Shown piece by piece: positions 11,481 through 64,000 of a stretch of 64,000 nt of DNA. The DNA is from Cladorhizidae sp. MBARI D1340-BT2. Taxonomy: Eukaryota; Porifera; Demospongiae; Poecilosclerida; Cladorhizidae. Numbering within the stretch: the first letter of the stretch is position 1; the number at the start of each line of letters is the position of its first letter. The notes below the pieces were generated by a model. It was not told where the DNA came from. It was given only the letters and a program-made list of their open reading frames with translations, and made no database searches. The position numbers and the translations under genes are program-made. The DNA lies in contig JAQNBH010000146.1 in the NCBI GenBank assembly GCA_028752905.1, forward strand, positions 1 through 64,000, in the 5' to 3' direction.

Positions 11481-12812
<1,332 letters not shown>

Positions 12813-12911
12813 AAACTTTTTCTAATTTCAAGCTTATAGAGGGGGAATTGCCCCCCCCCCCCCTTTCAAGTGGCACTCTATACAAGACACTCTTTGTGTC
12901 AGTCTGCCAGT

Positions 12912-13211
12912 ACATGCCAGTTCTTATACATACACTACACACACCAGCACATGCCAGTTCTTATACATACACTACACACACCAGCACATGTCAGTTCTTA
13001 TACATACACTACACACACCAGCACATGCCAGTTCTTATACATATACTACAGACACCAGCACATGCCAGTTCTTATACATACACTACACACACCAGCACAT
13101 GTCAGTTCTTATACATACACTACACACACCAGCACATGCCAGTTCTTATACATACACTACACACACCAGCACATGCCAGTTCTTATACATACACTACACA
13201 CACCAGCACAT
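12912..13211. repeat. 37-bp satellite, unit A (8 copies)
   Basis: Monomer of 37 bp containing CATGCCAGTTCTTATACATA and then CACTACACACACCAGCA. The first monomer begins at TACATGCC, immediately after TCTGCCAG of the upstream DNA; the non-repetitive flank seen in B is missing. Confidence 0.97.
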
Positions 13212-20618: not shown

Positions 20619-21515
20619 TTTGAGGGCTGCAGTGATCCTGCTTTTCAGTTAGGTATGGATGTGTGGAACAAAGACATAAATGTTCCCGCTCCCTCAGATG
20701 AGTCATCCTTTTCCCAAAAGAGTTGGGACACTCCGCACGTGAAGGCCTGCCTAGACAAGCTTGTGGAGGGAGCACAAGATGATACTGCGCGTGCTCGTTG
20801 TTAGAGCTGCTATATACCAAGAGTGAAGCAGGTGCCTGGCTCCATGCCCTCCCTATGTCTGCAGTTGGTTTGAGGATGGATGACGATGTGATTCGTGTAG
20901 CCACAGGTTTTCGTCTTGGTGTACCACTTTGTAGTCCTCACCAGTGTCTTCAGTGTGGAGCTCAAGTTGACCAGCAGGGTACTCATGGACTCAATTGCAG
21001 AAAGAGTCGGGGCCGCCACTCTCGACATGCTGCTATTAATCAAGGGATCCAAAGATCTCTATGTTCCGCCAAAATCCCCTCTTACCTGGAACCAGTAGGC
21101 TTGGATCGTGATGATGGCAAACGTCCTGATGGTGCCACAGTTGTGCCCTGGAGGAATGGGAAGGTTCTGGTTTGGGATGCCACATGTTCAGACATATTTG
21201 CTCCCTCTTATGCGGATTTGAGGTCTGGAGATCCTGGAACGGTTGCCAACAGAGCTGAATTCCTGAAGAAACGAAAGTATCGTTCAATCAAAGACACCCA
21301 CTATTTCGTTCCTCTGGGCTTGGAGACCACGGGTGTATTTGGTGATGAGGCCAATGTCCTTTATTAAGGAGTTGGGCAGGAAAATTAAGGAGGAGACTAG
21401 GGAGGCTAAGGCCCATTTCTACTTGCTCCAACGGTTGTCAGTAGCAATACAGCGTGGAAACGCTGCTGCTGTGCTGGGAACATCTCGAGTGCAGGAAACA
21501 TCAGACTACTTTTAA
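20619..21515 (+). mobile_element. RLE-type non-LTR retrotransposon C-terminal fragment, unit A only
   Basis: Three consecutive frames form one broken coding sequence: 20,619-20,801, about 20,798-21,361 and about 21,350-21,515, with single-base frameshifts near 20,800 and 21,352. The middle part carries C-x2-C-x9-H-x3-C (CLQCGAQVDQQGTHGLNC), RHSRHAAIN, EPVGL, GKRPDG and GKVLVWDATC. This order matches the zinc knuckle plus PD-(D/E)xK restriction-like endonuclease of R2-like non-LTR elements. The last part contains GRKIKEE and LLQRLSVAIQRGNAAA, as in the element's C terminus. The element is 5' truncated (no RT core) and sits between TAA-rich tracts. B and C lack it at the matching site (about 36,620-36,680 and 51,585-51,650). 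Dead copy; the family name is inferred from motif order. Confidence 0.82.
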
Positions 21516-24369: not shown

Positions 24370-25252
24370 GAAGATTATAGAGGGGGAATTGCCCCCCCCC
24401 CCCCTTTCAAGTGGCACTCTATACAAGACACTCTTTGTGTCAGTCTGCCAGGCCCTTTGGAATGCAGTGATTGGGTAAAGGGTCAAATACAACACGGGGA
24501 ATTCAACCTTTGACCTGTGAGATCACAATGTCATTGCTAGTCTGTCTAGCAATAAGTTGCGTATAAGTTTTCTGCTACCTGCTTCTTTTGAGGTTCTTCC
24601 AGATGATGTGAACCATCTTTATTACAGGACCTGTTTCACTCTCCAGACCTGTCTTTGTATTGTCATCAAGCACCTTAGTTACATTAGTAACAGGAAGGAA
24701 GAAAGAAAACAGTTTTATTTTTAAAAAAAGGATAAACTATGTTGGTAAAAATATCAAGGAAATGAGCTGGACACACGTATGCAGGCAGCTTTGAGTTTGA
24801 TGATCCTTTAAATCATGTTCACCATCAAGCTATACAATAAGTATAGGTGCACAAGTTGAAATGGTAAAGGGTCATCTTTTAACAAGCTGTGGTCCTACGG
24901 CTATCTCTTGTTTCCTTTCCTTTCCTTTTTAACCAAATTACAACAAAAAAATTAAATTTTTATTGTTTGTTTGTCGTTTGTGTATGTTTCAGATGTTGTT
25001 TGCAGGAAAGAGCACAAAGTTAACTCAGAGCTTCAGAGATGTCTGGAGTTGAAAACACTTTTCTTCTTCGTTAATTTTCGTATATCGTACAATTACTTTC
25101 AACTCGCGGCATCAAATGTACTGGGGAATTCCCCTTTGAACACCTTCATGCTTTTATAATCATCAGGAATACTTCAGTCTTCATCGCCTTGGAGACAAAA
25201 GTCCTCCCATTGAAATGTTGGCAATAAAAGCAATGAGAAATCTACAGAGCAA
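24370..25252. other. Non-repetitive segment before the 37-bp array, unit B
   Basis: Poly-C at about 24,391, then DNA deleted from unit A. A good splice-acceptor-like tract (TTTGTGTATGTTTCAG, ending at about 24,992) precedes an open stretch DVVCRKEHKVNSELQRCLEL running to TAA at 25,159. A possible last exon, with no homology I recognise. The final 39 bases, starting at ATG 25,215, read into the 37-bp array. Confidence 0.5.
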
Positions 25253-25715
25253 CACTACACACACCAGCACATGCCAGTTCTTATACATACACTACACACA
25301 CCAGCACATGTCAGTTCTTATACATACACACACACACCAGCACATGTCAGTTCTTATACATACACTACACACACCAGCACATGCCAGTTCTTATACATAC
25401 ACTACACACACCAGCACATGCCAGTTCTTATACATACACTACACACACCAGCACATGCCAGTTCTTATACATACACTACACACACCAGCACATGCCAGTT
25501 CTTATACATACACTACACACACCAGCACATGCCAGTTCTTATACATACACTACACACACCAGCACATGCCAGTTCTTATACATACACTACACACACCAGC
25601 ACATGCCAGTTCTTATACATACACTACACACACCAGCACATGCCAGTTCTTATACATACACTACACACACCAGCACATGCCAGTTCTTATACATACACTA
25701 CACACACCAGCACAT
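25253..25715. repeat. 37-bp satellite, unit B (about 12.5 copies)
   Basis: Same monomer as unit A. The third unit lacks CTACAC (ACATACACACACACACC at about 25,322). Because 37 is 3n+1 and the monomer has no stop triplet, all three plus frames stay open through the array and into the 15-bp array. Confidence 0.98.
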
Positions 25716-27475: not shown

Positions 27476-28940
27476 AATAGTGTTTGCCTAAATAATTTTA
27501 TTTTTAATTTGTTTAAAGCTGCTGCCTCCTATTGCGTACCAAAGATGCTGGACTCCACCATAGCCAGGCCTAGACACTCACAGCTACATGTAGGAGCTTA
27601 ATGTTGCCAGCTCAGCTAATCACAGAAGCAGAGCTTAGGCCAGTGTACCAGCAGCCATGTAACTAGGGTAGGATCAGGATGTTAGGGCTAGGGACAAGGT
27701 CAGAGTTACAGTAGTTAGAACCAGTGTCCAGGATTAGAGATAGGGCCAGAATTAGGACCAGAAGGCTCAGGATTAGAGCTAATGCCAGAGTTGGGCTTAA
27801 GCCTAACGTTAAAATTAGGGCCAGAGTTAAGACAAGAATCACCAGGGCTAAAGCTAGGGGAAAAGTTAGGACCTCGGGCCATGGCTAAAGCCAGGGGTGG
27901 AGTTAGGACCAGGGGTTAGTGCTAGAGCTAGGGCCAGAGTTAGGACCTCGGGCCATGGCTAAAGCCAGGGGTGGAGTTAGGCCCAGGGGTTAGTGCTAGA
28001 GCTAGGGCCAGAGCTAGGGCCAGAGCTAAGAGAAGGGTCCAAGGCCAGAGCTGAATCGTTAAAAAAAAGTTGGTAAGAGCAATTTTAACCAAAGGACTTG
28101 ATTTTGTATCTCAGCATTTCTCTGGCAGGCAGTTTTGCTATGTGCTCACTGAAACTCATCAAGCCGCCCCCCCGTAAGTGCAGAGTGAATGTAGGGCACT
28201 ATAGCAGAGGTGAGGACAGATGCAGAGAGCAGGAGAGGAGAGTGTCTGTAATCAAGAGCTTAGATGACCTAGCAAGTGAGGACAAGAGCACGCACATACA
28301 TGTAGATCTCACACCTGCTTCATGACCTCGCCCGCTACAGTTACTGTTCAAGTTCAGGAATGACTGATTATTGCCAAGTCAGCAAGAACATAGCATATTA
28401 TACATGAAGTGCATGTGAGGTATTATTGCTGATAGTTGACACTATCTCTTTCACATACCTAGTCTTGGGCATTGAAGTGCTTTTCAGGTAGTGATTGCTG
28501 CCATTAGCACTTGGTGTCATTGAGACAAGACAGGGATCCTAATAAAGGCAAAAAGTGGAGATTCCACCATTCTTTAAATCTGCAAACAATAAATTATCTC
28601 AGGTAGACAGCGTTGCCCAGGAAACAATACAATATCTAGAGAGGATTACAAATTGATGTGCCTCCCTCCCCCTATCCTTCCACTTCTCCAAGCCCCCAGG
28701 TGTTGATCACAATTCTTACTCTCCTGAATTCCTGTTATGACCACTCGATGTTTTTGTATGGAACAAGTGGAAGACCACAATGCCTTCTGTTAATCTCATC
28801 ATTCCAACAACTTCATTCTAATGGAGTAGTGCTAGAGGTAGCCTCGCTGGCTAACTGCTTGCATTGGGTGAGTCCAACGCAGCTAGAGGAGTCTGTTGGC
28901 AAAGCCACCTTGTGAGGTTATTAGTGTGGTACTGTATATC
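27476..28940. other. Non-repetitive segment between 15-bp and 60-bp arrays, unit B
   Basis: Absent from unit A. It contains a degenerate TTAGGG-like tract (27,658-28,058) and a region with an acceptor-like TTTGTATCTCAG (28,114) and a donor-like CCCGTAAGT (about 28,171) that could bound a small exon. The plus frames 28,098-28,325 and 28,658-28,915 show no domain I recognise. Confidence 0.6.
27658..28058. repeat. Degenerate TTAGGG-like / GGGCCAGAGTTA tract, unit B
   Basis: Loose 12-bp periodicity around TAGGGCCAGAGT with scattered TTAGGG and TTAGGAC words. A 74-bp segment beginning GTTAGGACCTCGGGCC is tandemly duplicated at 27,865 and 27,939. It is a decayed minisatellite; telomeric origin cannot be claimed. 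Confidence 0.7.
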
Positions 28941-30320
28941 TCTCACTGGTGCCATGAGAGGCAACCACATGTCTCCCGTACAGACCTACTCTCTCACTGG
29001 TGCCATGAGGTAACTCAGAGGCAACCACATGTCTCCCGTACAGACCTACTCTCTCACTGGTGCCATGATAACTCAGAGGCAACCACATGTCTCCCGTACA
29101 GACCTACTCTCTCACTGGTGCCATGCGCTAACTCAGAGGCAACCACATGTCTCCCGTACAGACCTACTCTCTCACTGGTGCCATGAGCTAACTCAGAGGC
29201 AACCACATGTGTCCAGTACAGACCTACTCTCTCACTGGTGCCATGAGCTAACTCAGAGGCAACCACATGTCTCCCGTACAGACCTACTCTCTCACTGGTG
29301 CCATGAGCTAACTCAGAGGCAACCACATGTCTCCCGTACAAACCTACTCTCTCACTGGTGCCATGAGCTAACTCAGAGGCAACCACATGTCTCCCATACA
29401 GACCTACTCTCTAACTGGTACCATGAGCTAACTCAGAGGCAACCACATGTCTCACGTACAAACCTACTCTCTCACTGGTGCCATGAGCTAACTCAGAGGC
29501 AACCACATGTCTCCCGTACAGACCTACTCTCTCACTGGTGCCATGAGCTAACTCAGAGGCAACCACATGTCTCCCATACAGACCTACTCTCTCACTGGTG
29601 CCATGAGCTAACTCAGAGGCAACCACATGTCTCCCGTACAAACCTACTCTCTCACTGGTGCCATGAGCTAACTCAGAGGCAACCACATGTGTCCAGTACA
29701 GACCTACTCTCTCACTGGTGCCATGAGCTAACTCAGAGGCAACCACATGTCTCCCATACAGACCTACTCTCTCACTGGTGCCATGAGCTAACTCAGAGGC
29801 AACCACATGTCTCCCGTACAAACCTACTCTCTCACTGGTGCCATGGGCTAACTCAGAGGCAACCACATGTCTCCCATACAGACCTACTCTCTCACTGGTG
29901 CCATGAGCTAACTCAGAGGCAACCACATGTGTCCAGTACAGACCTACTCTCTCACTGGTGCCATGAGCTAACTCAGAGGCAACAACATGTCTCCCGTACA
30001 GACCTACTCTCTCACTGGTGCCATGAGCTAACTCAGAGGCAACCACATGTCTCCCGTACAGACCTACTCTCTCACTGGTGCCATGAGCTAACTCAGAGGC
30101 AACCACATGTCTCCCATACAGACCTACTCTCTCACTGGTGCCATGAGCTAACTCAGAGGCAACCACATGTCTCCCGTACAGACCTAGTCTCTCACTGGTG
30201 CCATGAGCTAACTCAGAGGCAACCACATGTCTCCCGTACAGACCTACTCTCTCACTGGTGCCATGAGCTAACTCAGAGGCAACCACATGTCTCCCGTACA
30301 GATCTACTGTCCCACTAGTG
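28941..30320. repeat. 60-bp satellite, unit B (about 23 copies)
   Basis: Same 60-bp monomer, with first monomers shortened. Variants CTCCCATACA, GTCCAGTACA and CAAACCTACT alternate. An open plus frame of 429 codons (29,029-30,318) has a 20-residue period (SHWCHELTQRQPHVS core). An open minus frame (30,460-29,411, 349 codons) starts in flanking non-repetitive DNA and repeats GRHVVASELAHGTSERVGLY. Confidence 0.98.
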
Positions 30321-31700
30321 ACCTGAAAATAAGGCAACATAAATAAATAATTTATAAGCTGATGTCCAAGTAGCAGATGACATAACTGAGTGTGTGTTAA
30401 TGGTCTGTATTTGTGCAGCAGGACATTGTCTTGTCTTGAGTGAGTGAGGCACCTTAACAAGGTACAGGGGTCAGGGTTTGAGCTGGAGATAACAAATAAA
30501 AATTAGAGATGGGAGAGGGAGGGGGTATCCTTTTTGCCACACCCCCAATATAAATCTCTGGGGATAAACAGGGGCGAGTTGGCTGATAGCCACAACTCTG
30601 CGAGGCACAGTTGACGTGATATCAGAAACTAAGCCCCTCTAGGTCCTCCCCTCCCCCTCTCTCACGCACACTCAGCATATTCACAAGATAACAATGAATA
30701 ATACATCTGTAGACCACACACATCTGTTGACCCTTTACCAACTGAACATCATCCAGTTCATGCCTTTCATGGTGAGGGAAAACCCCCATTTCCACCTAAG
30801 GATTACTGTACTTACTGTGAGCTACACACTCACAAAGTTGGTAAAGGGTTCACTCACGAGAAATAGAATACCTGCATTTCATGAGGAACACATATCCACA
30901 TGTGAACACACCCTCTCAGCATGGCTCTAGAGAGATCTCCTAGTATTGTGAATTGTGCTGGACCGTTAGCTAGCTAGTGATTTCTATTCCCATGCCCTGT
31001 CTCCCTACTTGAATAAGGCTAAAAGGACAACTTGCGTCCAGCACCTGCTACTATGCCATGAATCACTCCACCTCATAGCAATAGTAGAGCACAGACTGAA
31101 GACATCTTCCTGAGAACATGACCAGCTAATATGCCCAGACTTCAGCACCTCCCACACAAAATACACCTGCTGATTATGAGTCTCTGGCAAGCACTGCAGT
31201 TGCTCGCCAGAGACACCATCCCAAATTACCTTTATACAATGGGTGTGGTCTCTTCAAACCACACCCTTACTCCGGGGAAAATTGATATCGCTCATTTTTT
31301 TCCATAGAACAAACTGAAAAGAGGTGTGGTTATCAGACACAGCTAATATGCCTAGACTTCAGCACCAGACATGCGTAATTAGCAAGTGCATTACAAAACC
31401 ACGACTCTTTCCCCACAATAATTATTACAGACATAATTATTGCCTCAAGGAAACTATCCTCTCATACAGTAATGATAGCAACATTAATTGCAAAGGCAGT
31501 ATAATAGTGTGATCATTATAAAGAGTTTATAAGTGGTTGTGGTCTACTAACACTTTTCTGTCTTGTTTCTATTAGCAGCTGCTTACAAGAAGTTACACAG
31601 TAACTCTAGAACTATATACCCAATCATAGATGTCACCCTTTACCATATTTAGGACATGTCCCTATGCATAATTATGCACACACACATACACACATACATA
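30321..31700. other. Non-repetitive segment between 60-bp and 46-bp arrays, unit B
   Basis: Matches 14,311-15,716. The 23-C run of A is absent. The 9-bp GGGTGTGGT hairpin is at about 31,240-31,265. The short open frame at 30,694-30,930 lacks any domain. Confidence 0.65.
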
Positions 31701-32670
31701 CATATGTCCCTATGTATTTAATATACACACACATAGATACATGCATCATATGTCCCTATGTATTTAATATACACACACATAGATACATGCATCATATGTC
31801 CCTATGTATTTAATACACACACACATAGATACATGCATCATATGTCCCTATGCATTTAATACACACACACATAGATACATGCATCACATGTCCCTATGTA
31901 TTTAATATACACACACATAGATACATGCATCACATGTCCCTATGTATTTAATATACACACACATAGATACATGCATCATATGTCCCTATGTATTTAATAT
32001 ACACACACATAGATACATGCATCATATGTCCCTATGTATTTAATATACACACACATAGATATATGCATCACATGTCCCTATGTATTTAATATACACACAC
32101 ATAGATACATGCATCACATGTCCCTATGTATTTAATATACACACACATAGATACATGCATCATATGTCCCTATGTATTTAATATACACACACATAGATAC
32201 ATGCATCATATGTCCCTATGTATTTAATATACACACACATAGATACATGCATCATATGTCCCTATGTATTTAATATACACACACATAGATACATGCATCA
32301 TATGTCCCTATGTATTTAATATACACACACATAGATACATGCATCATATGTCCCTATGTATTTAATATACACACACATAGATACATGCATCATATGTCCC
32401 TATGTATTTAATATACACACACATAGATACATGCATCATATGTCCCTATGTATTTAATATACACACACATAGATACATGCATCATATGTCCCTATGTATT
32501 TAATATACACACACATAGATACATGCATCATATGTCCCTATGTATTTAATATACACACACATAGATAAGATACATGCATCATATGTCCCTATGTATTTAA
32601 TATACACACACATAGATACATGCATCATATGTCCCTATGTATTTAATACACACACACATAGATACATGCA
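31701..32670. repeat. 46-bp satellite, unit B (about 21 copies)
   Basis: Same monomer and almost the same copy number as in A. One monomer has an AGATA-containing insertion (TAGATAAGATACATG at about 32,563) shared with C and absent from A. Confidence 0.98.
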
Positions 32671-32779
32671 GTTATCTGGTGAAGGTTTGTCATAAGCCTA
32701 AGCTTCTAAGGAAAATTACTGATAACTAAAATATAATGATGAAGATGATGATGATGATGATGATAATAATAAAAAATAA

Positions 32780-33032
<253 letters not shown>

Positions 33033-35525
33033 GTCAGTATTATTATTGGAGGTGTGGTCCCTATATTGGGGTGACTCTCGTGTTAAAGTTGCAGACAAGC
33101 AACAAAGTTGATGCCTCAGCTGACACTGGCATTATAAAATGCTGGTATTATTAATGCATTACTGAGCTGAGGTGCAGCAGGTGTGGCTGGGGGAGGAAGA
33201 GGAAAGGTGCGGGGAAGAACACTTTTTGGCTTCCCTTTCTTTAGATAGGACAAGGAAGACTGGAGAGCTAAAAATGGCCAAACATGAAGTTAGTGACTGC
33301 CAGTGAGTTTAGCACGTATTGGACCTTGAAAATGTATTTATTAATTAATTTATTTATTGTAGCCTGCATGTTGAAATCCTGGCAGAGTGCACTGTGCACT
33401 CCAATATGATCTACTTGAAGGCCACACAATTATAATATCTCAAATTTCAGTTGTTAAACTTCCTTCCCTAAACTTTTGCTCCACAAAGACAACACAGTGG
33501 GAGAAGCAGAATTGAGAGATGATCCTTTGAAGAAATCTTGTAATGGGGGGGGAAAAGGGGGGAAAATGGGCACCTTAAGCTGCAATGACCTTTAAACCTT
33601 CGTGCTTTAATAATATATAATATGACTGGATTGGGTGGAGGGGGGGGGGGGAGGAGGATTTTCTTAGAAGATCTCCCGCCATTCTGACCCCCTTTCCTCT
33701 GTACGAGGCCCAGTACATAACAATTATTGATGATAAAAAAATGGCTAAAGAGAAGTAGAATCAAACAATAATGAATGAGAGGCAGTCACTTCCATGACTA
33801 AAACTTGAGGAGTGAAGGAAGTGGGCAACCACTGCTGTTTGAATTAGGTCTCTACAAGAACTCTAACCACTGTCTCTCTAGCCACTGTCAAAAACTAACA
33901 ATAACCTATGACTTTACAGTTACCTTCTCAATAATCAACTTGAAATTGTAAGTTGATTATTGAGAAGGTTATTGTAATGTTATTATGTCAACTGAGAGTT
34001 CATTGAGAACCTAGACTATTGCAACCAAGCCACCTGGCTATACTAAGTCAACCATAGATATCTTATTACAATGACCTTCTCACCAGAGATTAAATTTCAA
34101 GTTGATTTATTGTAATATCGTGATGTCAACTGAGAGTTGGTTCATAGATATCTCACCTGAACTTTTGGATGCACACTCCCTCAGCTTCCAATTGCTTTAG
34201 GTCTTCCAGCGGTGCGGTAAGGTACATCTAATTCTGCTGTTCCTCTGCTAACACGAAAGATCTTGTTTCAGTGAATGCACGACCCTTTTCCATTTACCCT
34301 GGGGAAAAGGTAAAGGATCGACAATGCGTGAAATTTGCGCGGTCAGTGATTTTGTCCAGCGTATATATTAGTCTCGCGATTCCCTATGCAATAAGGCAAG
34401 CTAGATAGTTATATTGTTATCTGTTTGCTGGGGTTCAGCAACTACGAGACTCCCTTTTCATAGATTATGCTGCGACGACTTTAGGGTGACAAATTGTCTG
34501 TGGACAACACCCTTCACGGATTCACTGCGCAGCTGTGAAGAGAACAGTGCCTTCATTATAGTATCGCAGTTTCTTGTTGTTTTTTAGGATTGGTGCCCCA
34601 GGAAGCTTTATATTTTTCTCAGCCAAGTTTGGTGGCAGGGCATAAATGGAAGAGGCAGGAAATCTTTCCTGGCATCCTTGATTGCAGATTTTTAAACCTC
34701 CCTGTCTCTGGACATTATTCTCATCACTATGAATGCAGCAAAGGAAGTCTTGCATGAGCTTCATGTTTATAATTAAGACTTAGAGCCTTGGTAGAGGATC
34801 AGCTACAGCTACTTTCAAATATGTGCTAACATTTGCACATGATATGGAGGAATAATCAAATGCTACTCTATTGCTACAAGTATAATCCAACAAATTGCAG
34901 ATTGCCTGCAGGTCCTCTTTATTTTAGAAGAAGATTCTCAGTAGACAAACTGAGTGTAAACTATATAATTTGCTAGAATTAAATATAGCTGCATTAGCTA
35001 AAGGTTGTGATACACTTGCATAAGTCCTATAATTATGTATACATATATCAATAAGGTTGCAGATTATTAAGCTGTAGCACAGTGCAACCACTGTTAGCTG
35101 AATAGGGGAATTTAATTTTTGAGTTGAGGCCACTGGCTGGTCCCCAGCTGGCAGGTTCTCCATTGCCACCATGAGCACCTTCTCTATCTAAACTTTTCTC
35201 TCCACGGAGTGAGCCTTTCATGAAAGCAGTTGACCATTCACTTCTTTGCAGAGAAAGCATGTAGCTGCTGCACCAGCTCAGCCAGGCTCAGTCACACACA
35301 CGTACACACACATGCATACACACACACGACTATTCTGTTGATGTTCCTTACCAATTCTTGTGCTTGGCTGAATTAAAGAAACGGCCATGGGATTCTTATA
35401 ATAGCAAATTTATGAACATGGACATGGTATATGTAAGTTACAATATCCCAAGGAGGGAAAAGTAACATAACAGACAGGATGAAATGTTTCTCCCATATGT
35501 TCCATCCTTATTTGTTCAATCACCT

Positions 35526-35559
<34 letters not shown>

Positions 35560-35642
35560 GTGTGGTGTGGTTGTGTGGTGTCGGTGGATAAATAGACAAA
35601 AAAGATGAAAAATATAGAAAACCAAAAACAAATTTCCTTATC
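33033..35642. other. Non-repetitive block, unit B
   Basis: Counterpart of 17,020-19,650 with the same hairpin (33,922-33,969), CpG cluster (about 34,190-34,510), 80-codon minus frame (34,522-34,764) and a longer (GT)n at about 35,527-35,556. No gene recognised. Confidence 0.65.
33922..33969. repeat. Perfect 19-bp hairpin, unit B
   Basis: Identical to the unit A hairpin, including its 10-base loop. Confidence 0.85.
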
Positions 35643-35795
35643 AAAATATACAGCAAGCAAATAAATCACTTGCTTATGAACTCACACTATTACACAGACA
35701 TGTAATTGAGGACCTTTACCAGGCAAAATATACAGCAAGCAAATAAATGCACTTGCTTATGAACTCAACTACTGCACGGCCAGGTAAATGAACTT
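35643..35795. repeat. 82-bp tandem duplication, units B and C only
   Basis: AAAATATACAGCAAGCAAAT occurs at 35,643 and 35,725. The two copies have already diverged. Unit A has one copy (about 19,634). A later (TA)n tract (about 35,801-35,816) is also private to B and C. Confidence 0.85.
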
Positions 35796-35849
35796 TATTA
35801 TGTATATATATATATATTTGGACTACAATACTTAATCTCCATTATATTA

Positions 35850-36304
35850 CAGCTGGTGCATATATAGGTGTCTGGGCATGTAACATCCCACACTAGTGAT
35901 GCACCACCCTTCCATGGGAACAAACTGATGCCATCCGATCTGAACACTCCATTGGGTTCGAGTTGAGATGGGATCTTTGCAGATGCCACTGGGATGACAT
36001 TGAGCCAAGCACCAGATTCTTTCCATGCCGTTAGCAAACATGCACGATAAGTTTCAGAACTAGCGTCACTCAGCAGCTGAATGTATATAGTAGTAGTGGA
36101 GAAGAGAAGGAAGGAGATGAAAGTAATAGTTTGGGAATGCAAAATGCATACGGAGGAGATGCAATGCATCACGAGCATGGAGGTAACTAAGTCTCTCTCC
36201 CAAACATGCACAATGAATCCATCTTCTTCCCAAACAATGCCTTTCACTCCACCAATCAGTGAACCCAGAAGGGTGGATGACCCTGGGTTCACTACCAGAA
36301 ACAT
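35850..36304 (-). mobile_element. Non-LTR retrotransposon remnant, unit B
   Basis: Counterpart of 19,780-20,215. Minus-strand translation shows GSLIGGVKGIV, KESGAWLNVIP, AKIPSQLEPNG, GISLFPWKGG and LVWDVTCPDTY. The Trp codon that is a stop in A is intact here. However, a 15-bp in-frame deletion removes the residues carrying the endonuclease PD motif (FRSDGIS here against FRSNGKQPDGIS in A), and one base is lost in the thumb region (CGTATGCA against CGTCATGCA). Non-functional. Confidence 0.8.
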
Positions 36305-36330
36305 AAATAAATTAAAAAAATTAATATATA

Positions 36331-37903
<1,573 letters not shown>

Positions 37904-39399: not shown

Positions 39400-40283
39400 A
39401 AGAAGATTATAGAGGGGGAATTGCCCCCCCCCCCCTTTCAAGTGGCACTCTATACAAGACACTCTTTGTGTCAGTCTGCCAGGCCCTTTGGAATGCAGTG
39501 ATTGGGTAAAGGGTCAAATACAACACGGGGAATTCAACCTTTGACCTGTGAGATCACAATGTCATTGCTAGTCTGTCTAGCAATAAGTTGCGTATAAGTT
39601 TTCTGCTACCTGCTTCTTTTGAGGTTCTTCCAGATGATGTGAACCATCTTTATTACAGGACCTGTTTCACTCTCCAGACCTGTCTTTGTATTGTCATCAA
39701 GCACCTTAGTTACATTAGTAACAGGAAGGAAGAAAGAAAACAGTTTTATTTTTTTTTAAAGGATAAACTATGTTGGTAAAAATATCAAGGAAATGAGCTG
39801 GACACACGTATGCAGGCAGCTTTGAGTTTGATGATCCTTTAAATCATGTTCACCATCAAGCTATACAATAAGTATAGGTGCACAAGTTGAAATGGTAAAG
39901 GGTCATCTTTTAACAAGCTGTGGTCCTACGGCTATCTCTTGTTTCCTTTCCTTTCCTTTTTAACCAAATTACAACAAAAAAATTAAATTTTTATTGTTTG
40001 TTTGTCGTTTGTGTATGTTTCAGATGTTGTTTGCAGGAAAGAGCACAAAGTTAACTCAGAGCTTCAGAGATGTCTGGAGTTGAAAACACTTTTCTTCTTC
40101 GTTAATTTTCGTATATCGTACAATTACTTTCAACTCGCGGCATCAAATGTACTGGGGAATTCCCCTTTGAACACCTTCATGCTTTTATAATCATCAGGAA
40201 TACTTCAGTCTTCATCGCCTTGGAGACAAAAGTCCTCCCATTGAAATGTTGGCAATAAAAGCAATGAGAAATCTACAGAGCAA
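39400..40283. other. Non-repetitive segment before the 37-bp array, unit C
   Basis: Same as 24,370-25,252, including the acceptor-like TATGTTTCAG (ending about 40,023). Confidence 0.5.
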
Positions 40284-40746
40284 CACTACACACACCAGCA
40301 CATGCCAGTTCTTATACATACACTACACACACCAGCACATGTCAGTTCTTATACATACACACACACACCAGCACATGTCAGTTCTTATACATACACTACA
40401 CACACCAGCACATGCCAGTTCTTATACATACACTACACACACCAGCACATGCCAGTTCTTATACATACACTACACACACCAGCACATGCCAGTTCTTATA
40501 CATACACTACACACACCAGCACATGCCAGTTCTTATACATACACTACACACACCAGCACATGCCAGTTCTTATACATACACTACACACACCAGCACATGC
40601 CAGTTCTTATACATACACTACACACACCAGCACATGCCAGTTCTTATACATACACTACACACACCAGCACATGCCAGTTCTTATACATACACTACACACA
40701 CCAGCACATGCCAGTTCTTATACATACACTACACACACCAGCACAT
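40284..40746. repeat. 37-bp satellite, unit C (about 12.5 copies)
   Basis: Same length and same internal variants as in B at an offset of 15,031. Confidence 0.98.
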
Positions 40747-42506
40747 GTCCAGGCTAAAAGTGGTCCAGTCTAAAAGTGGTCCAGGCTAATGTGGTCCAGG
40801 CTAATGTGGTCCAGGCTAATGTGGTCCAAGCTAATGTGGTCCAGGCTAATGTGGTCCAAAGCTAATGTGGTCCAGGCTAATGTGGTCCAGGCTAATGTGG
40901 TCCAAGCTAATGTGGTCTAAGCTAATGTGGTCCAGGCTAATGTGTTCCAGGCTAATGTGATCCAGGCTAATGTGGTCCAGGCTAATGTGGTCCAGGCTAA
41001 TGTGGTCCAAAGCTAATGTGGTCCAGGCTAATGTGGTCCAGGCTAATGTGGTCCAAGCTAATGTGGTCTAAGCTAATGTGGTTCAGGCTAATGTGGTCCA
41101 GGCTAATGGGGTCTAAGCTAATGTGGTCCAAGCTAATGTGGTCCAGGCTAATGTGGTCCAAGCTAATGTGGTCCAAGCTAATTGGTCCAGGCTAAAAGTG
41201 GTCCAGGCTAATGTGGTCCGGACTAAAAGTGGTCCAGGCTAATGTGGTCCAGGCTAATGTGGTCCAGGCTAATGTGGTCCAGGCTAATGTGGTCCAGGCT
41301 AATGTGGTCCAGGCTAATGTGGTCTAAGCTAATGTGGTTCAGGCTAATGTGGTCTAAGCTAATGTGGTTCAGGCTAATGTGGTCTAAGCTAATGTGGTCC
41401 AGGCTAATGTGGTCTAAGCTAATGTGGTTCAGGCTAATGTGGTCTAAGCTAATGTGGTCCAGGCTAAAAGTGGTCCAGGCTAATTTGGTCCAAGCTAATG
41501 TGGTCCAAGCTAATTGGTCCGGGCTAAAAGTGGTTCAGGCTAATTTGGTCCGGACTAAATGTGGTCCAGGCTAATGTGGTCCAGGCTAAAAGTGGTCCAG
41601 GCTAATGTGGTCCAGGCTAAAAGTGGTCCAGGCTAATGTGGTCCAAGCTAATGTGGTCCAGGCTAATGTGGTCCAGGCTAATGTGGTCCAGGCTAATTTG
41701 GTCCAGGCTAATTTGGTCCAGGCTAATGTGGGCCAGGCTAATGTGGTCCAGGCTAATTTGGTCCAGGCTAATGTGGTCCAAGCTAATGTGGTCCAGGCTA
41801 ATGTGGTCCAAGCTAATGTGGTCCAAGCTAATGTGGTCTAAGATAATGTGGTCCAAGCTAATGTGGTCCAGGCTAATGTGGTCCAGGCTAATGTGGTCCA
41901 AGCTAATGTGGGCCTGGCTAATGTGGTCCAAGCTAATGTGGTCCAGGCTAATGTGGTCCAAGCTAATGTGGTCCAGGCTAATGTGGTCCAGGCTAATGTG
42001 GTCCAGGCTAATGTGGTCCAGGCTAATGTGGTCCAAGCTAATGTGGTCCAGGCTAATGTGGTCCAAGCTAATGTGGTCCAAGCTAATGTGGTCTAAGCTA
42101 ATGTGGTCCAAGCTAATGTGGTCCAGGCTAATGTGGTCCAGGCTAATGTGGTCCAAGCTAATGTGGGCCTGGCTAATGTGGTCCAAGCTAATGTGGGCCA
42201 GGCTAATGTGGTCCAAGCTAATGTGGTCCAGGCTAATGTGGTCCAGGCTAATGTGGTCCAGGCTAATGTGGTCCAGGCTAATGTGGTCCAAGCTAATGTG
42301 GTCCAAGCTAATGTGGTCTAAGCTAATGTGGTCCAAGCTAATGTGGTCCAGGCTAATGTGGTCCAGGCTAATGTGGTCCAAGCTAATGTGGGCCTGGCTA
42401 ATGTGGTCCAAGCTAATGTGGTCCAAGCTAATGTGGTCCAGGCTAATGTGGTCCAGGCTAATGTGGTCCAGGCTAATGTGGTCCAAGCTAATGTGGTCCA
42501 GGCTAA
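40747..42506. repeat. 15-bp satellite, unit C (about 117 copies)
   Basis: Same length and variant order as B. Frames open on both strands (41,636-42,511 plus; 42,486-41,617 minus). Confidence 0.98.
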
Positions 42507-54009: not shown

Positions 54010-54305
<296 letters not shown>

Positions 54306-54329
54306 ATAAACTTTTTCATAATTTCAAGA

Positions 54330-55211
54330 AGATTATAGAGGGGGAATTGCCCCCCCCCCCCCCTTTCAAGTGGCACTCTATACAAGACACTCTTTGTGTC
54401 AGTCTGCCAGGCCCTTTGGAATGCAGTGATTGGGTAAAGGGTCAAATACAACACGGGGAATTCAACCTTTGACCTGTGAGATCACAATGTCATTGCTAGT
54501 CTGTCTAGCAATAAGTTGCGTATAAGTTTTCTGCTACCTGCTTCTTTTGAGGTTCTTCCAGATGATGTGAACCATCTTTATTACAGGACCTGTTTCACTC
54601 TCCAGACCTGTCTTTGTATTGTCATCAAGCACCTTAGTTACATTAGTAACAGGAAGGAAGAAAGAAAACAGTTTTTTTTTTTTTTAAAGGATAAACTATG
54701 TTGGTAAAAATATCAAGGAAATGAGCTGGACACACGTATGCAGGCAGCTTTGAGTTTGATGATCCTTTAAATCATGTTCACCATCAAGCTATACAATAAG
54801 TATAGGTGCACAAGTTGAAATGGTAAAGGGTCATCTTTTAACAAGCTGTGGTCCTACGACTATCTCTTGTTTCCTTTCCTTTCCTTTTTAACCAAATTAC
54901 AACAAAAAAATTAAATTTTTATTGTTTGTTTGTCGTTTGTGTATGTTTCAGATGTTGTTTGCAGGAAAGAGCACAAAGTTAACTCAGAGCTTCAGAGATG
55001 TCTGGAGTTGAAAACACTTTTCTTCTTCGTTAATTTTCGTATATCGTACAATTACTTTCAACTCGCGGCATCAAATGTACTGGGGAATTCCCCTTTGAAC
55101 ACCTTCATGCTTTTATAATCATCAGGAATACTTCAGTCTTCATCGCCTTGGAGACAAAAGTCCTCCCATTGAAATGTTGGCAATAAAAGCAATGAGAAAT
55201 CTACAGAGCAA
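54330..55211. other. Non-repetitive segment before the 37-bp array, unit D
   Basis: Same as 24,370-25,252. A T-run at about 54,674 is longer than in B. Acceptor-like TATGTTTCAG ends at about 54,951. Confidence 0.5.
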
Positions 55212-58200
55212 CACTACACACACCAGCACATGCCAGTTCTTATACATACACTACTCACACCAGCACATGCCAGTTCTTATACATACACTACACACACCAG
55301 CACATGTCAGTTCTTATACATACACTACACACACCAGCACATGTCAGTTCTTATACATACTCTACACACACCAGCACATGCCAGTTCTTATACATACACT
55401 ACACACACCAGCACATGCCAGTTCTTATACATACACTACACACACCAGCACATGCCAGTTCTTATACATACACTACACACACCAGCACATGCCAGTTCTT
55501 ATACATACACTACTCACACCAGCACATGCCAGTTCTTATACATACACTACTCACACCAGCACATGCCAGTTCTTATACATACACTACACACACCAGCACA
55601 TGCCAGTTCTTATACATACACTACACACACCAGCACATGCCAGTTCTTATACATACACTACTCACACCAGCACATGTCAGTTCTTATACATACACTACAC
55701 ACACCAGCACATGCCAGTTCTTATACATACACTACACACACCAGCACATGCCAGTTCTTATACATACACTACACACACCAGCACATGTCAGTTCTTATAC
55801 ATACACTTACACACACCAGCACATGCCAGTTCTTATACATACACTACACACACCAGCACATGCCAGTTCTTATACATACACTACACACACCAGCACATGC
55901 CAGTTCTTATACATACACTACACACACCAGCACATGCCAGTTCTTATACATACACTACACACACCAGCACATGCCAGTTCTTATACATACACTACACACA
56001 CCAGCACATGCCAGTTCTTATACATACACTACTCACACCAGCACATGCCAGTTCTTATACATACACTATACACACCAGCACATGTCAGTTCTTATACATA
56101 CACTACACACACCAGCACATGCCAGTTCTTATACATACACTACACACACCAGCACATGCCAGTTCTTATACATACACTATACACACCAGCACATGTCAGT
56201 TCTTATACATACACTACACACACCAGCACATGCCAGTTCTTATACATACACTACACACACCAGCACATGTCAGTTCTTATACATACACTACACACACCAG
56301 CACATGCCAGTTCTTATACATACACTACTCACACCAGCACATGCCAGTTCTTATACATACACTACTCACACCAGCACATGCCAGTTCTTATGCATACACT
56401 ACACACACCAGCACATGCCAGTTCTTATACATACACTACACACACCAGCACATGCCAGTTCTTATACATACACTACACACACCAGCACATGTCAGTTCTT
56501 ATACATACACTACTCACACCAGCACATGCCAGTTCTTATACATACACTACACACACCAGCACATGCCAGTTCTTATACATACACTACACACACCAGTACA
56601 TGCCAGTTCTTATACATACACTACACACACCAGCACATGCCAGTTCTTATACATACACTACACACACCAGCACATGCCAGTTCTTATACATACACTACAC
56701 ACACCAGCACATGCCAGTTCTTATACATACACTACACACACCAGCACATGCCAGTTCTTATACATACACTACACACACCAGTACATGCCAGTTCTTATAC
56801 ATACACTACACACACCAGCACATGCCAGTTCTTATACATACACTACACACACCAGCACATGCCAGTTCTTATACATACACTACACACACCAGCACATGCC
56901 AGTTCTTATACATACACTACACACACCAGTACATGCCAGTTCTTATACATACACTACACACACCAGCACATGCCAGTTCTTATACATACACTACACACAC
57001 CAGCACATGCCAGTTCTTATACATACACTACACACACCAGCACATGCCAGTTCTTATACATACACTACACACACCAGCACATGCCAGTTCTTATACATAC
57101 ACTACACACACCAGCACATGTCAGTTCTTATACATACACTACACACACCAGCACATGCCAGTTCTTATACATACACTACACACACCAGCACATGCCAGTT
57201 CTTATACATACACTACACACACCAGCACATGCCAGTTCTTATACATACACTACACACACCAGCACATGCCAGTTCTTATACATACACTACACACACCAGC
57301 ACATGCCAGTTCTTATACATACACTACACACACCAGCACATGCCAGTTCTTATACATACACTACACACACCAGCACATGCCAGTTCTTATACATACACTA
57401 CACACACCAGCACATGCCAGTTCTTATACATACACTACACACACCAGCACATGCCAGTTCTTATACATACACTACACACACCAGCACATGCCAGTTCTTA
57501 TACATACACTACACACACCAGCACATGCCAGTTCTTATACATACACTACACACACCAGCACATGCCAGTTCTTATACATACACTACACACACCAGCACAT
57601 GCCAGTTCTTATACATACACTACACACACCAGCACATGCCAGTTCTTATACATACACTACACACACCAGCACATGCCAGTTCTTATACATACACTACACA
57701 CACCAGCACATGCCAGTTCTTATACATACACTACACACACCAGCACATGCCAGTTCTTATACATACACTACACACACCAGCACATGCCAGTTCTTATACA
57801 TACACTACACACACCAGCACATGCCAGTTCTTATACATATACTACACACACCAGCACATGCCAGTTCTTATACATACACTACACACACCAGCACATGCCA
57901 GTTCTTATACATACACTACACACACCAGCACATGCCAGTTCTTATACATACACTACACACACCAGCACATGCCAGTTCTTATACATACACTACACACACC
58001 AGCACATGCCAGTTCTTATACATACACTACACACACCAGCACATGCCAGTTCTTATACATACACTACACACACCAGCACATGCCAGTTCTTATACATACA
58101 CTACACACACCAGTACATGCCAGTTCTTATACATACACTACACACACCAGCACATGCCAGTTCTTATACATACACTACACACACCAGCACATGCCAGTTC

Positions 58201-60738
58201 TTATACATACACTACACACACCAGCACATGCCAGTTCTTATACATACACTACACACACCAGCACATGCCAGTTCTTATACATACACTACACACACCAGCA
58301 CATGTCAGTTCTTATACATACACTACACACACCAGCACATGCCAGTTCTTATACATACACTACACACACCAGCACATGCCAGTTCTTATACATACACTAC
58401 ACACACCAGCACATGCCAGTTCTTATACATACACTACACACACCAGCACATGCCAGTTCTTATACATACACTACACACACCAGCACATGGCAGTTCTTAT
58501 ACATACACTACACACACCAGCACATGTCAGTTCTTATACATACACTACACACACCAGCACATGCCAGTTCTTATACATACACTACACACACCAGCACATG
58601 CCAGTTCTTATACATACACTACACACACCAGCACATGCCAGTTCTTATACATACACTACACACACCAGCACATGCCAGTTCTTATACATACACTACTCAC
58701 ACCAGCACATGCCAGTTCTTATACATACACTACACACACCAGCACATGCCAGTTCTTATACATACACTACACACACCAGCACATGCCAGTTCTTATACAT
58801 ACACTACACACACCAGCACATGCCAGTTCTTATACATACACTACACACACCAGCACATGCCAGTTCTTATACATACACTACACACACCAGCACATGCCAG
58901 TTCTTATACATACACTACACACACCAGCACATGCCAGTTCTTATACATACACTACACACACCAGCACATGCCAGTTCTTATACATACACTACACACACCA
59001 GCACATGCCAGTTCTTATACATACACTACACACACCAGCACATGCCAGTTCTTATACATACACTACACACACCAGCACATGCCAGTTCTTATACATACAC
59101 TACACACACCAGCACATGCCAGTTCTTATACATACACTACACACACCAGCACATGCCAGTTCTTATACATACACTACACACACCAGCACATGCCAGTTCT
59201 TATACATACACTACACACACCAGCACATGCCAGTTCTTATACATATACTACACACACCAGCACATGCCAGTTCTTATACATACACTACACACACCAGCAC
59301 ATGCCAGTTCTTATACATACACTACACACACCAGCACATGCCAGTTCTTATACATACACTACACACACCAGCACATGCCAGTTCTTATACATACACTACA
59401 CACACCAGCACATGCCAGTTCTTATACATACACTACACACACCAGCACATGCCAGTTCTTATACATACACTACACACACCAGCACATGCCAGTTCTTATA
59501 CATACACTACACACACCAGTACATGCCAGTTCTTATACATACACTACACACACCAGCACATGCCAGTTCTTATACATACACTACACACACCAGCACATGC
59601 CAGTTCTTATACATACACTACACACACCAGCACATGCCAGTTCTTATACATACACTACACACACCAGCACATGCCAGTTCTTATACATACACTACACACA
59701 CCAGCACATGTCAGTTCTTATACATACACTACACACACCAGCACATGCCAGTTCTTATACATACACTACACACACCAGCACATGCCAGTTCTTATACATA
59801 CACTACACACACCAGCACATGCCAGTTCTTATACATACACTACACACACCAGCACATGCCAGTTCTTATACATACACTACACACACCAGCACATGGCAGT
59901 TCTTATACATACACTACACACACCAGCACATGTCAGTTCTTATACATACACTACACACACCAGCACATGCCAGTTCTTATACATACACTACACACACCAG
60001 CACATGCCAGTTCTTATACATACACTACACACACCAGCACATGCCAGTTCTTATACATACACTACACACACCAGCACATGCCAGTTCTTATACATACACT
60101 ACTCACACCAGCACATGCCAGTTCTTATACATACACTACACACACCAGCACATGCCAGTTCTTATACATACACACACCAGCACATGCCAGTTCTTATACA
60201 TACACTACTCACCAGCACATGCCAGTTCTTATACATACACTACACACACCAGCACATGTCAGTTCTTATACATACACTACACACACCAGCACATGCCAGT
60301 TCTTATACATACACTACACACACCAGCACATGCCAGTTCTTATACATACACTACACACACCAGCACATGCCAGTTCTTATACATACACTACACACACCAG
60401 CACATGTCAGTTCTTATACATACACTACACACACCAGCACATGCCAGTTCTTATACATACACTACACACACCAGCACATGCCAGTTCTTATACATACACT
60501 ACACACACCAGCACATGCCAGTTCTTATACATACACTACTCACACCAGCACATGCCAGTTCTTATACATACACTACACACACCAGCACATGCCAGTTCTT
60601 ATACATACACTACACACACCAGCACATGCCAGTTCTTATACATGCACTACACACACCAGCACATGCCAGTTCTTATACATACACTACACACACCAGCACA
60701 TGCCAGTTCTTATACATACACTACACACACCAGCACAT
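55212..60738. repeat. 37-bp satellite, unit D, expanded to about 149 copies
   Basis: 5.5 kb of the same 37-bp monomer, against about 0.46 kb in B and C. Variant monomers: CTACTCACACC (clustered in the first 1.5 kb and near the end), CTATACACACC, CAGTACATG, CACATGTCAG, CACATGGCAG. A few length changes occur (extra T at about 55,807; missing CTACAC at about 60,170; missing CA at about 60,208). Variants show a 1,406-bp internal duplication. Flanks on both sides are the same as in B and C, so the growth happened within the array. Confidence 0.98.
57835..60650. repeat. 1,406-bp (38-monomer) duplication inside the expanded 37-bp array
   Basis: Three rare variants recur at exactly 38 x 37 bp: ACATATACT at 57,835 and 59,241, CAGTACATG at 58,111 and 59,517, and CATGG at 58,486 and 59,892. 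The feature limits are approximate. Confidence 0.85.
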
Positions 60739-62505
60739 GTCCAGGCTAAAAGTGGTCCAGTCTAAAAGTGGTCCAGGCTAATGTGGTCCAGGCTAATGTG
60801 GTCCAGGCTAATGTGGTCCAAGCTAATGTGGTCCAGGCTAATGTGGTCCAAAGCTAATGTGGTCCAGGCTAATGTGGTCCAGGCTAATGTGGTCCAAGCT
60901 AATGTGGTCTAAGCTAATGTGGTCCAGGCTAATGTGTTCCAGGCTAATGTGATCCAGGCTAATGTGGTCCAGGCTAATGTGGTCCAGGCTAATGTGGTCC
61001 AAAGCTAATGTGGTCCAGGCTAATGTGGTCCAGGCTAATGTGGTCCAAGCTAATGTGGTCTAAGCTAATGTGGTTCAGGCTAATGTGGTCCAGGCTAATG
61101 GGGTCTAAGCTAATGTGGTCCAAGCTAATGTGGTCCAGGCTAATGTGGTCCAAGCTAATGTGGTCCAAGCTAATTGGTCCAGGCTAAAAGTGGTCCAGGC
61201 TAATGTGGTCCGGACTAAAAGTGGTCCAGGCTAATGTGGTCCAGGCTAATGTGGTCCAGGCTAATGTGGTCCAGGCTAATGTGGTCCAGGCTAATGTGGT
61301 CCAGGCTAATGTGGTCCAGGCTAATTGGTCTAAGCTAATGTGGTTCAGGCTAATGTGGTCTAAGCTAATGTGGTTCAGGCTAATGTGGTCTAAGCTAATG
61401 TGGTCCAGGCTAATGTGGTCTAAGCTAATGTGGTTCAGGCTAATGTGGTCTAAGCTAATGTGGTCCAGGCTAAAAGTGGTCCAGGCTAATTTGGTCCAAG
61501 CTAATGTGGTCCAAGCTAATTGGTCCGGGCTAAAAGTGGTTCAGGCTAATTTGGTCCGGACTAAATGTGGTCCAGGCTAATGTGGTCCAGGCTAAAAGTG
61601 GTCCAGGCTAATGTGGTCCAGGCTAAAAGTGGTCCAGGCTAATGTGGTCCAAGCTAATGTGGTCCAGGCTAAGCTAATGTGGTCCAGGCTAATTTGGTCC
61701 AGGCTAATTTGGTCCAGGCTAATGTGGGCCAGGCTAATGTGGTCCAGGCTAATTTGGTCCAGGCTAATGTGGTCCAAGCTAATGTGGTCCAGGCTAATGT
61801 GGTCCAAGCTAATGTGGTCCAAGCTAATGTGGTCTAAGATAATGTGGTCCAAGCTAATGTGGTCCAGGCTAATGTGGTCCAGGCTAATGTGGTCCAAAGC
61901 TAATGTGGGCCTGGCTAATGTGGTCCAAGCTAATGTGGTCCAGGCTAATGTGGTCCAAGCTAATGTGGTCCAGGCTAATGTGGTCCAGGCTAATGTGGTC
62001 CAGGCTAATGTGGTCCAGGCTAATGTGGTCCAAGCTAATGTGGTCCAGGCTAATGTGGTCCAAGCTAATGTGGTCCAAGCTAATGTGGTCTAAGCTAATG
62101 TGGTCCAAGCTAATGTGGTCCAGGCTAATGTGGTCCAGGCTAATGTGGTCCAAGCTAATGTGGGCCTGGCTAATGTGGTCCAAGCTAATGTGGGCCAGGC
62201 TAATGTGGTCCAAGCTAATGTGGTCCAGGCTAATGTGGTCCAGGCTAATGTGGTCCAGGCTAATGTGGTCCAGGCTAATGTGGTCCAAGCTAATGTGGTC
62301 CAAGCTAATGTGGTCTAAGCTAATGTGGTCCAAGCTAATGTGGTCCAGGCTAATGTGGTCCAGGCTAATGTGGTCCAAGCTAATGTGGGCCTGGCTAATG
62401 TGGTCCAAGCTAATGTGGTCCAAGCTAATGTGGTCCAGGCTAATGTGGTCCAGGCTAATGTGGTCCAGGCTAATGTGGTCCAAGCTAATGTGGTCCAGGC
62501 TAAAA
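60739..62505. repeat. 15-bp satellite, unit D (about 118 copies)
   Basis: Very close to B and C, with small private differences: an extra monomer near 61,310, AGGCTAAGCTAATG at about 61,666, and CCAAAGCTAATG at about 61,893. These break the long frames that are open in B and C. Confidence 0.98.
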
Positions 62506-63967
62506 TAGTGTTTGCCTAAATAATTTTATTTTTAATTTGTTTAAAGCTGCTGCCTCCTATTGCGTACCAAAGATGCTGGACTCCACCATAGCCAGGCCTA
62601 GACACTCACAGCTACATGTAGGAGCTTAATGTTGCCAGCTCAGCTAATCACAGAAGCAGAGCTTAGGCCAGTGTACCAGCAGCCATGTAACTAGGGTAGG
62701 ATCAGGATGTTAGGGCTAGGGACAAGGTCAGAGTTACAGTAGTTAGAACCAGTGTCCAGGATTAGAGATAGGGCCAGAATTAGGACCAGAAGGCTCAGGA
62801 TTAGAGCTAATGCCAGAGTTGGGCTTAAGCCTAACGTTAAAATTAGGGCCAGAGTTAAGACAAGAATCACCAGGGCTAAAGCTAGGGGAAAAGTTAGGAC
62901 CTCGTGCCATGGCTAAAGCCAGGGGTGGAGTTAGGACCAGGGGTTAGTGCTAGAGCTAGGGCCAGAGTTAGGACCTCGGGCCATGGCTAAAGCCAGGGGT
63001 GGAGTTAGGCCCAGGGGTTAGTGCTAGAGCTAGGGCCAGAGCTAGGGCCAGAGCTAAGAGAAGGGTCCAAGGCCAGAGCTGAATCGTTTAAAAAAAGTTG
63101 GTAAGAGCAATTTTAACCAAAGGACTTGATTTTGTATCTCAGCATTTCTCTGGCAGGCAGTTTTGCTATGTGCTCACTGAAACTCATCAAGCCGCCCCCC
63201 CGTAAGTGCAGAGTGAATGTAGGGCACTATAGCAGAGGTGAGGACAGATGCAGAGAGCAGGAGAGGAGAGTGTCTGTAATCAAGAGCTTAGATGACCTAG
63301 CAAGTGAGGACAAGAGCACGCACATACATGTAGATCTCACACCTGCTTCATGACCTCGCCCGCTACAGTTACTGTTCAAGTTCAGGAATGACTGATTATT
63401 GCCAAGTCAGCAAGAACATAGCATATTATACATGAAGTGCATGTGAGGTATTATTGCTGATAGTTGACACTATCTCTTTCACATACCTAGTCTTGGGCAT
63501 TGAAGTGCTTTTCAGGTAGTGATTGCTGCCATTAGCACTTGGTGTCATTGAGACAAGACAGGGATCCTAATAAAGGCAAAAAGTGGAGATTCCACCATTC
63601 TTTAAATCTGCAAACAATAAATTATCTCAGGTAGACAGCGTTGCCCAGGAAACAATACAATATCTAGAGAGGATTACAAATTGATGTGCCTCCCTCCCCC
63701 TATCCTTCCACTTCTCCAAGCCCCCAGGTGTTGATCACAATTCTTACTCTCCTGAATTCCTGTTATGACCACTCGATGTTTTTGTATGGAACAAGTGGAA
63801 GACCACAATGCCTTCTGTTAATCTCATCATTCCAACAACTTCATTCTAATGGAGTAGTGCTAGAGGTAGCCTCGCTGGCTAACTGCTTGCATTGGGTGAG
63901 TCCAACGCAGCTAGAGGAGTCTGTTGGCAAAGCCACCTTGTGAGGTTATTAGTGTGGTACTGTATAT
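62506..63967. other. Non-repetitive segment with degenerate TTAGGG-like tract, unit D
   Basis: Same as 27,476-28,940. The TTAGGG-like tract is at about 62,686-63,086; its first 74-bp copy has CCTCGTGCC in place of CCTCGGGCC. Confidence 0.6.
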
Positions 63968-64000
63968 CTCTCACTGGTGCCATGAGAGGCAACCACATGT
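63968..64000. repeat. 60-bp satellite, unit D (start only)
   Basis: First shortened monomer; the array continues past the window. Confidence 0.9.

Follow-up and report, generated by a model that had tools for sequence, protein, structure and literature searches.

The 37-bp tandem repeat on contig JAQNBH010000146.1 of the sponge Cladorhizidae sp. MBARI D1340-BT2 (assembly GCA_028752905.1) is very likely a minisatellite, or variable number tandem repeat (VNTR), that turns over by duplication and deletion of blocks of monomers, whose long array predates the duplication of the unit carrying it and whose short arrays in two closely related units may have arisen by loss. The first 64 kb of this 221,454-bp contig, referred to here as the window, contain four arrays of the repeat, in units designated A to D; the rest of the contig was also analysed and holds five more (E to I), which gives nine in all. 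Our conclusions are based on the sequence of a single assembly (857 Mb in 325 contigs), and the units compared are neighbouring paralogous copies on one contig. In the window, Tandem Repeats Finder located the 37-bp arrays at 12907-13211 (8.2 copies), 25252-25721 (12.7), 40283-40752 (12.7) and 55211-60744 (149.7). The last three were trimmed at their border with a 15-bp array (Table 1), leaving 12.5 copies each in B and C and 149.4 in D. A first-pass annotation of the window had given practically the same copy numbers, and it is correct in counting a roughly twelve-fold larger array in D relative to B and C. Its description of D as the exception among four sibling units is an effect of the window, because the sibling unit F beyond it has 125.4 copies. 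Units G, H and I have 58.4, 8.2 and 27.2 copies, respectively, while E was read in part and left uncounted. On the contig as a whole, array sizes range from 8 to 149 copies, with the short arrays forming the other extreme of the spread.

The evidence for the age of the long array lies in its variant monomers, which became apparent when each monomer was parsed against the 37-bp consensus. The arrays of B and C are identical at all 464 of 464 bases and show three departures from the consensus, located in two monomers. Variant monomers number 40 of 150 in D and 38 of 126 in F, where they are interspersed and form a readable map; types found in D and absent from B and C are 8A>T, 17C>T, 7C>T, 2C>T, 34A>G and several indels. 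With one copy of a duplicated block removed from D (see below), 102 of 112 monomers align identically and in the same order with F, including 32 of the 34 that bear variants, and the alignment scores 146, whereas 60 shuffles averaged 29 and peaked at 41. As F carries the map of D, the long array is older than the D/F duplication. The claim of a very recent, single expansion private to D is thus not tenable: an array of about 110 or more monomers predates that duplication, and the D variants missing in B and C together with the map shared by F speak against a single recent expansion from an array of the B/C type. Within D, again with one block copy removed, variants lie nearer to the array ends than monomers in general (mean distance 20.9 versus 27.5; 0.3% of 20,000 shuffles gave a value as low), and 19 consecutive monomers are pure, a stretch matched in length in 1.8% of shuffles.

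The clearest difference between D and F is a block of 38 monomers (1,406 bp), which is present twice in D and once in F and amounts to a roughly 1.3-fold change (112 to 150 monomers), not a twelve-fold one. Monomers 96-133 of D exactly repeat monomers 58-95, down to the order of the six variant monomers that these contain; the self-match at an offset of 1,406 extends over 1,476 bp without a difference, and the junction is located to within about 70 bp. In 1,000 monomer shuffles of D, an identical block with at least three variants never exceeded 18 monomers. Our claim of a block duplication is founded on this block-length test and not on a cruder count of matching variants at an offset of 38, which gave 7 in D and up to 8 in 5,000 shuffles. 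Older block duplications in D were also considered and rejected: after collapse of the 38-monomer block the best offset, 13 monomers, yielded 5 matches, a value reached by 16% of 2,000 shuffles.

In the collapsed alignment, the remaining differences consist of additional monomers in one array or the other (F +15, D +5, D +1, D +1, F +9 and D +3), all of them within the left 55 monomers of D, and the final 2,041 bp of the two arrays are identical. An alternative alignment with the block left uncollapsed and the same scoring gives 110 identical monomers (32 of them variant), a mismatch at one monomer and, around the middle of the array, gaps of 23 and 9 monomers. The number and place of the smaller changes therefore depend on the alignment, and single-monomer gaps in pure runs are not exactly placeable; we prefer the collapsed version because the block is an exact duplication. 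On this basis, all six of the smaller changes fall into the left 55 of 112 monomers (chance 0.014), or six of seven if the 38-monomer block is included (0.057), an alignment-dependent figure in either case, so that the lean of the changes towards the left half of the array is suggestive only. Clustering of changes at one end is a feature of hypermutable minisatellites of the human type.

Outside the array, the two units have hardly diverged. To the right of it, an alignment of 14,263 columns contains 5 mismatches and 19 gap columns, and the 15-, 60- and 46-bp arrays are equally long in D and F (1765, 1366 and 835 bp, respectively). Among the minisatellites, the length change consequently sits in the 37-bp array, for which the other three serve as slower internal controls. 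About seven D/F length changes have occurred in the 37-bp array while the flank to its right collected those 5 mismatches. The first-pass annotation described the locus as a natural experiment in satellite growth within a larger tandem repeat; it is indeed a natural experiment, though one in array turnover, and the array has changed fast relative to its flanks.

We envisage a large, tandemly duplicated unit of a eukaryotic genome that carries several minisatellites, the 37-bp array among them. In this array monomers would be gained and lost in blocks, most likely by unequal exchange or by strand-annealing repair between sister chromatids, a mechanism that we infer from the repeat pattern. Array length would change much faster than the flanks gather point mutations. 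The shared variant map shows that an array of at least about 110 monomers existed before F and G arose by duplication of the segment containing D and E; thereafter, D and F would have diverged by one 38-monomer block and about six smaller changes in the left half. The differences between the two arrays are observed, and we infer which copy gained or lost monomers in each case. The short arrays of B and C would most likely represent loss from a longer ancestor. The variant maps of D and F mean that single block gains or losses in a minisatellite can be read from one assembly. A hairpin-driven change was also considered and found too weak, two monomers of the G-rich strand folding with a z of -2.1 (6 of 200 shuffles were as good) and the C-rich strand with a z of 1.2.

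Units F and G are a second copy of the D-E segment at a distance of about 33.26 kb, and the 15-kb units are themselves part of a larger tandem duplication. An alternative is an assembly artefact, in which the D array or its second 38-monomer block would have been made by the assembler, or F-G would be the other haplotype of D-E placed in tandem. The two block copies in D are indeed identical over their whole self-match, D-E and F-G differ by the mere 5 mismatches mentioned above on one stretch, and the contig is short compared with the assembly mean of about 2.6 Mb and starts inside a satellite. On the other hand, a loop through monomers of the B/C type cannot give rise to variants foreign to those two units, and F shows the same variant order once more. 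Recurrence of the map at a second locus makes a looped assembly of the whole D array unlikely, and the long array probably exists in the genome, whereas its second block copy is seen in no unit other than D. That F-G is a misplaced haplotype agrees badly with the left flanks, where D and F differ at 9 of 1,455 sites, and with the comparison of the stretch from E-right to F-left with that from G-right to H-left, in which 28 of 10,432 columns differ in BLAST and 40 mismatches occur in MAFFT, a pattern that fits neighbouring units and not a single pair of alleles throughout. Taken together, we consider an artefact of any of these kinds improbable. The case also calls for caution in general: the outlier among the four units of the window had a near-twin about 34 kb on, so that an outlying copy number is best assessed against the whole array.

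A phylogenetic tree calculated for the right flanks separates B, C, D and F from A, E, G, H and I with a support of 100/100; the forks within the second clade are not separated. Outside the 60-bp array, the sites that vary in the first clade split B and C from D and F in 11 cases (6 of these in the 46-bp array), set apart B in 10, F in 7, D in 2 and C in 1, and place B and F against C and D in 1. Those setting B or F apart are located in the two left segments, as would be the case if the left parts derived from other unit junctions. To the left of the 37-bp array, H does not differ from B, C and D at any of 478 sites (left block 12004-12520 and its counterparts), and to the right of it H falls into the other clade with A as its nearest relative (5 of 1,349 sites differ). 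As units are related differently on the two sides of the array, they have probably exchanged parts, which is to be expected of tandem copies. The long array of D and F might itself have been obtained from another unit by gene conversion or by exchange within arrays, such that array and flanks have different histories, and the two-sided relationship of H is in line with this. We nevertheless regard such an origin as rather unlikely, since the array of D and F appears to share one history with its right flank, the identical 2,041-bp end being adjoined by a 15-bp array and right flank without any D/F difference, and since no donor with the same monomer order was found among the readable arrays of at least 20 monomers on the contig. 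An edge of the 15-kb unit duplication at the 37-bp array was also considered and not adopted: the transition from B being different to B being equal to C lies between 24726 and the array, and the few D-specific sites give no placement. Units A, G, H and I have a common left junction (12783-12910 in A), where the array begins within a 17C>T monomer at CCAG, and lack most of the 932-bp left flank found in B, C, D and F.

Either the ancestor of B and C shrank or that of D and F grew. The 8A>T monomer occurs in D, F, G and I, as well as in what is readable of E, and is absent from B and C; of the other monomer types of D, 17C>T, 7C>T and 3A>T are also found in I, and 17C>T and 2C>T in G. Because 8A>T is present in both clades, shrinkage on the B/C side is mildly favoured. 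Contraction in B and C had already been named as an alternative in the first-pass annotation and is compatible with the data to that extent. A one-step deletion from an array of the D type is not supported, the second monomer of B and C being a mismatch to the second of D and the 5-deletion of B and C occurring in no D monomer, and any such derivation would need more than one step. Conversely, the long array could have grown rapidly from a 12-copy array on the D/F stem after the split from B and C and then have been copied with D-E to F-G. Such growth is conceivable given that the four units form a single clade of very low divergence and that short arrays occur in both clades (8.2 copies in A and H, 12.5 in B and C). 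We nonetheless find it doubtful, as monomer types of D recur in I and G and the irregular scatter of the variants would seem to resemble a long history rather than one burst. If the array did grow on the stem, the first-pass annotation would have been right about growth and wrong in considering it private to D and very recent.

Several points weigh against an old long array that was lost in B and C. Short arrays of 8.2 copies exist in the other clade as well (A and H), and B and C could keep the old short state if 8A>T arose more than once or was copied between units. Only about seven substitution types in D are absent from A, B and C, so few that growth on the D/F stem is conceivable. The case for a common old long array across both clades consists solely of shared variant types: D, F, G and I, each of which offers 20 or more readable monomers, form six pairs, of which D-F alone gave a strong match; the in-order alignments of D-G, D-I, F-G and F-I fell within the shuffle range (15 shuffles each), and G-I scored 7.8 against a shuffle maximum of 6.8. 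The second block copy in D could be an assembly error. Finally, the 37-bp array is not the sole repeat that moved between D and F, as three-base microsatellites differ by 3 to 21 bp (AAT, 306 and 285 bp; ATA, 267 and 252 bp; ATA, 168 and 165 bp in D and F, respectively).

Short and long arrays may differ in stability. A and H both have 8.2 copies, with the 5 differences in 1,349 flank sites given above and 3 substitutions in 305 array bases; their 60-bp arrays are 60 gap columns apart, the length of one monomer. The per-monomer rate of change seen between D and F, scaled to A and H, predicts about five changes, a value that is several-fold uncertain as it is based on only 5 single nucleotide variants (SNVs). 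As array length is unchanged between A and H against about five predicted changes, we tentatively put forward a length-dependent switch, by which arrays below about 13 copies would be frozen (A and H; B equal to C) and the long array would be unstable, mostly in its left half. If this were so, one contig would hold a stable and an unstable state of the same minisatellite.

The flanks of B, C and D were compared segment by segment. C and D differ by SNVs at 3 of 1455, 2 of 931, 0 of 1750 and 2 of 1481 sites in four segments, i.e., at 7 of 5,617 aligned bases, a sum that excludes an AAT array in which 5 of 306 sites differ. Between B and C there are 5 SNVs, of which 4 fall within the 60-bp array; an alignment of the two over 25252-37554 gives 35 mismatches in 12,203 columns, which we read as inflated by misaligned arrays. 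The 15-bp array measures 1760, 1760 and 1765 bp in B, C and D, the 46-bp array 1015 bp in both B and C, and the 60-bp array 1364 bp in B and 1304 bp in C, a difference of one monomer. The view that B and C are otherwise nearly identical to D is thus borne out by the flanks with their few SNVs and fails for the array, in which D has variant monomers absent from B and C. Likewise, the flanks of the four arrays had been called identical, which holds for B, C and D (60 bases on each side of the array are the same) and not for A, where the array is joined to the left flank at CCAG and about 800 bp held by the other three are missing.

The assignment to the minisatellites, a class with monomers of about 10-100 bp, is based on head-to-tail 37-bp monomers in 8.2 to 149.4 copies, on the variant map and on the copy-number change between the near-identical units D and F. 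Classical satellite DNA consists of very long (100 kb or more) homogeneous arrays, and the biggest 37-bp array on the contig has 5.5 kb. An exact match to the 37-mer was not found in databases of genome contigs and viral contigs, from which close kin may have been left out. In comparing the locus with known systems, we draw on portions of the articles cited. Mouse minisatellites typed by variant repeat mapping were compared as alleles of one locus (PMC1929145), whereas paralogous neighbouring units are compared here; moreover, the 37-bp monomer is C-rich on one strand without being GC-rich, as G and C account for 16 of its 37 bases. Hypermutability of the human type is defined in the same source by a germline mutation rate of >0.5% per gamete. 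The human minisatellites MS32, CEB1 and MSY1 resemble the 37-bp array in their repeat duplications and deletions; some human loci have mutationally active ends, and models of the repair type, with synthesis-dependent strand annealing, have been proposed (PMC2599865). In contrast to these loci, the 37-bp array is known from assembly sequence and not from germline rates or inter-allelic conversion. The RNU2 macrosatellite with its embedded (CT)n microsatellite (PMC4132748) likewise combines a fast tandem repeat with a slower large unit, although the embedded repeat is a 37-bp minisatellite in our case and there is no match to U2. Neither the window nor 140,000 of the 157,454 remaining bases of the contig matched any RNA family of Rfam at the gathering score, including U2, ribosomal RNA and small nuclear RNA (snRNA); on that evidence the locus is neither an intergenic spacer of ribosomal DNA nor a tandem repeat of snRNA genes. 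The Sp185/333 cluster of the sea urchin (PMC5103432) is similar in that short repeats and segmental duplications occur in one unstable cluster, and differs in that no gene family was found here in the five open reading frames (ORFs) tested and duplication edges are not tied to the 37-bp array.

Table 1. Position in the window of the 37-bp arrays, of parts of the array in unit D and of the adjoining sequences.
Feature	Position	Strand	Remarks
37-bp array, unit A	12907..13211	+	8.2 copies; truncated at the left edge, with loss of about 800 bp of the B/C/D flank
37-bp array, unit B	25252..25715	+	12.5 copies
37-bp array, unit C	40283..40746	+	12.5 copies; same sequence as B
37-bp array, unit D	55211..60738	+	149.4 copies
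Left part of D array, monomers 1-55	55211..57246	+	many variant monomers; six smaller D/F length differences in the preferred alignment
38-monomer block (1,406 bp), copy 1, D	57292..58697	+	self-match at offset 1,406 continues to 58767
38-monomer block, copy 2, D	58698..60103	+	identical to copy 1; single F copy at contig position 91970
Right part of D array	58698..60738	+	2,041 bp; the F array ends on the right with exactly this sequence
Left flank of D array	54278..55210	+	also in B, C and F; truncated in A
15-bp array, unit D	60739..62503	+	1,765 bp; equal length in F
Right flank of D beyond 15-bp array	62504..63984	+	differs from B and C at 2 of 1,481 sites; both split BC from DF

All three forward frames are open across the D array (55174-60781; 1,825-1,863 amino acids) because neither the monomer nor the assembled array contains a stop triplet on that strand; open frames of this kind are no evidence of a gene, and a protein-coding reading was rejected. 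Pfam gave no match for the four ORFs of the window outside minisatellites, and a fifth, which runs into the 60-bp array, had three matches, all below the cut-offs. One ORF of 189 amino acids (20798-21367) without a Pfam match is retroelement-like and has 505 database relatives, the 120 listed among them bearing no informative names; it resembles the end of what we take to be a protein of a non-LTR (non-long-terminal-repeat), R2-like retroelement.

The 15-bp array (13213-13345, 25716-27475, 40747-42506 and 60739-62503) numbers about 117 copies in each of B, C, D and F, against 8.7 in A and 29.7 in I, and is thereby a further array whose size goes with the unit clade. A 53-bp satellite (dimer 107 bp) with about 217 copies occupies positions 1-11480; the contig starts within it, and it directly adjoins unit A. 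The remainder of the contig is dense with other minisatellites, 34-, 39-, 46-, 36-, 27-, 24- and 41-bp repeats among them, one of which is 22 kb long.

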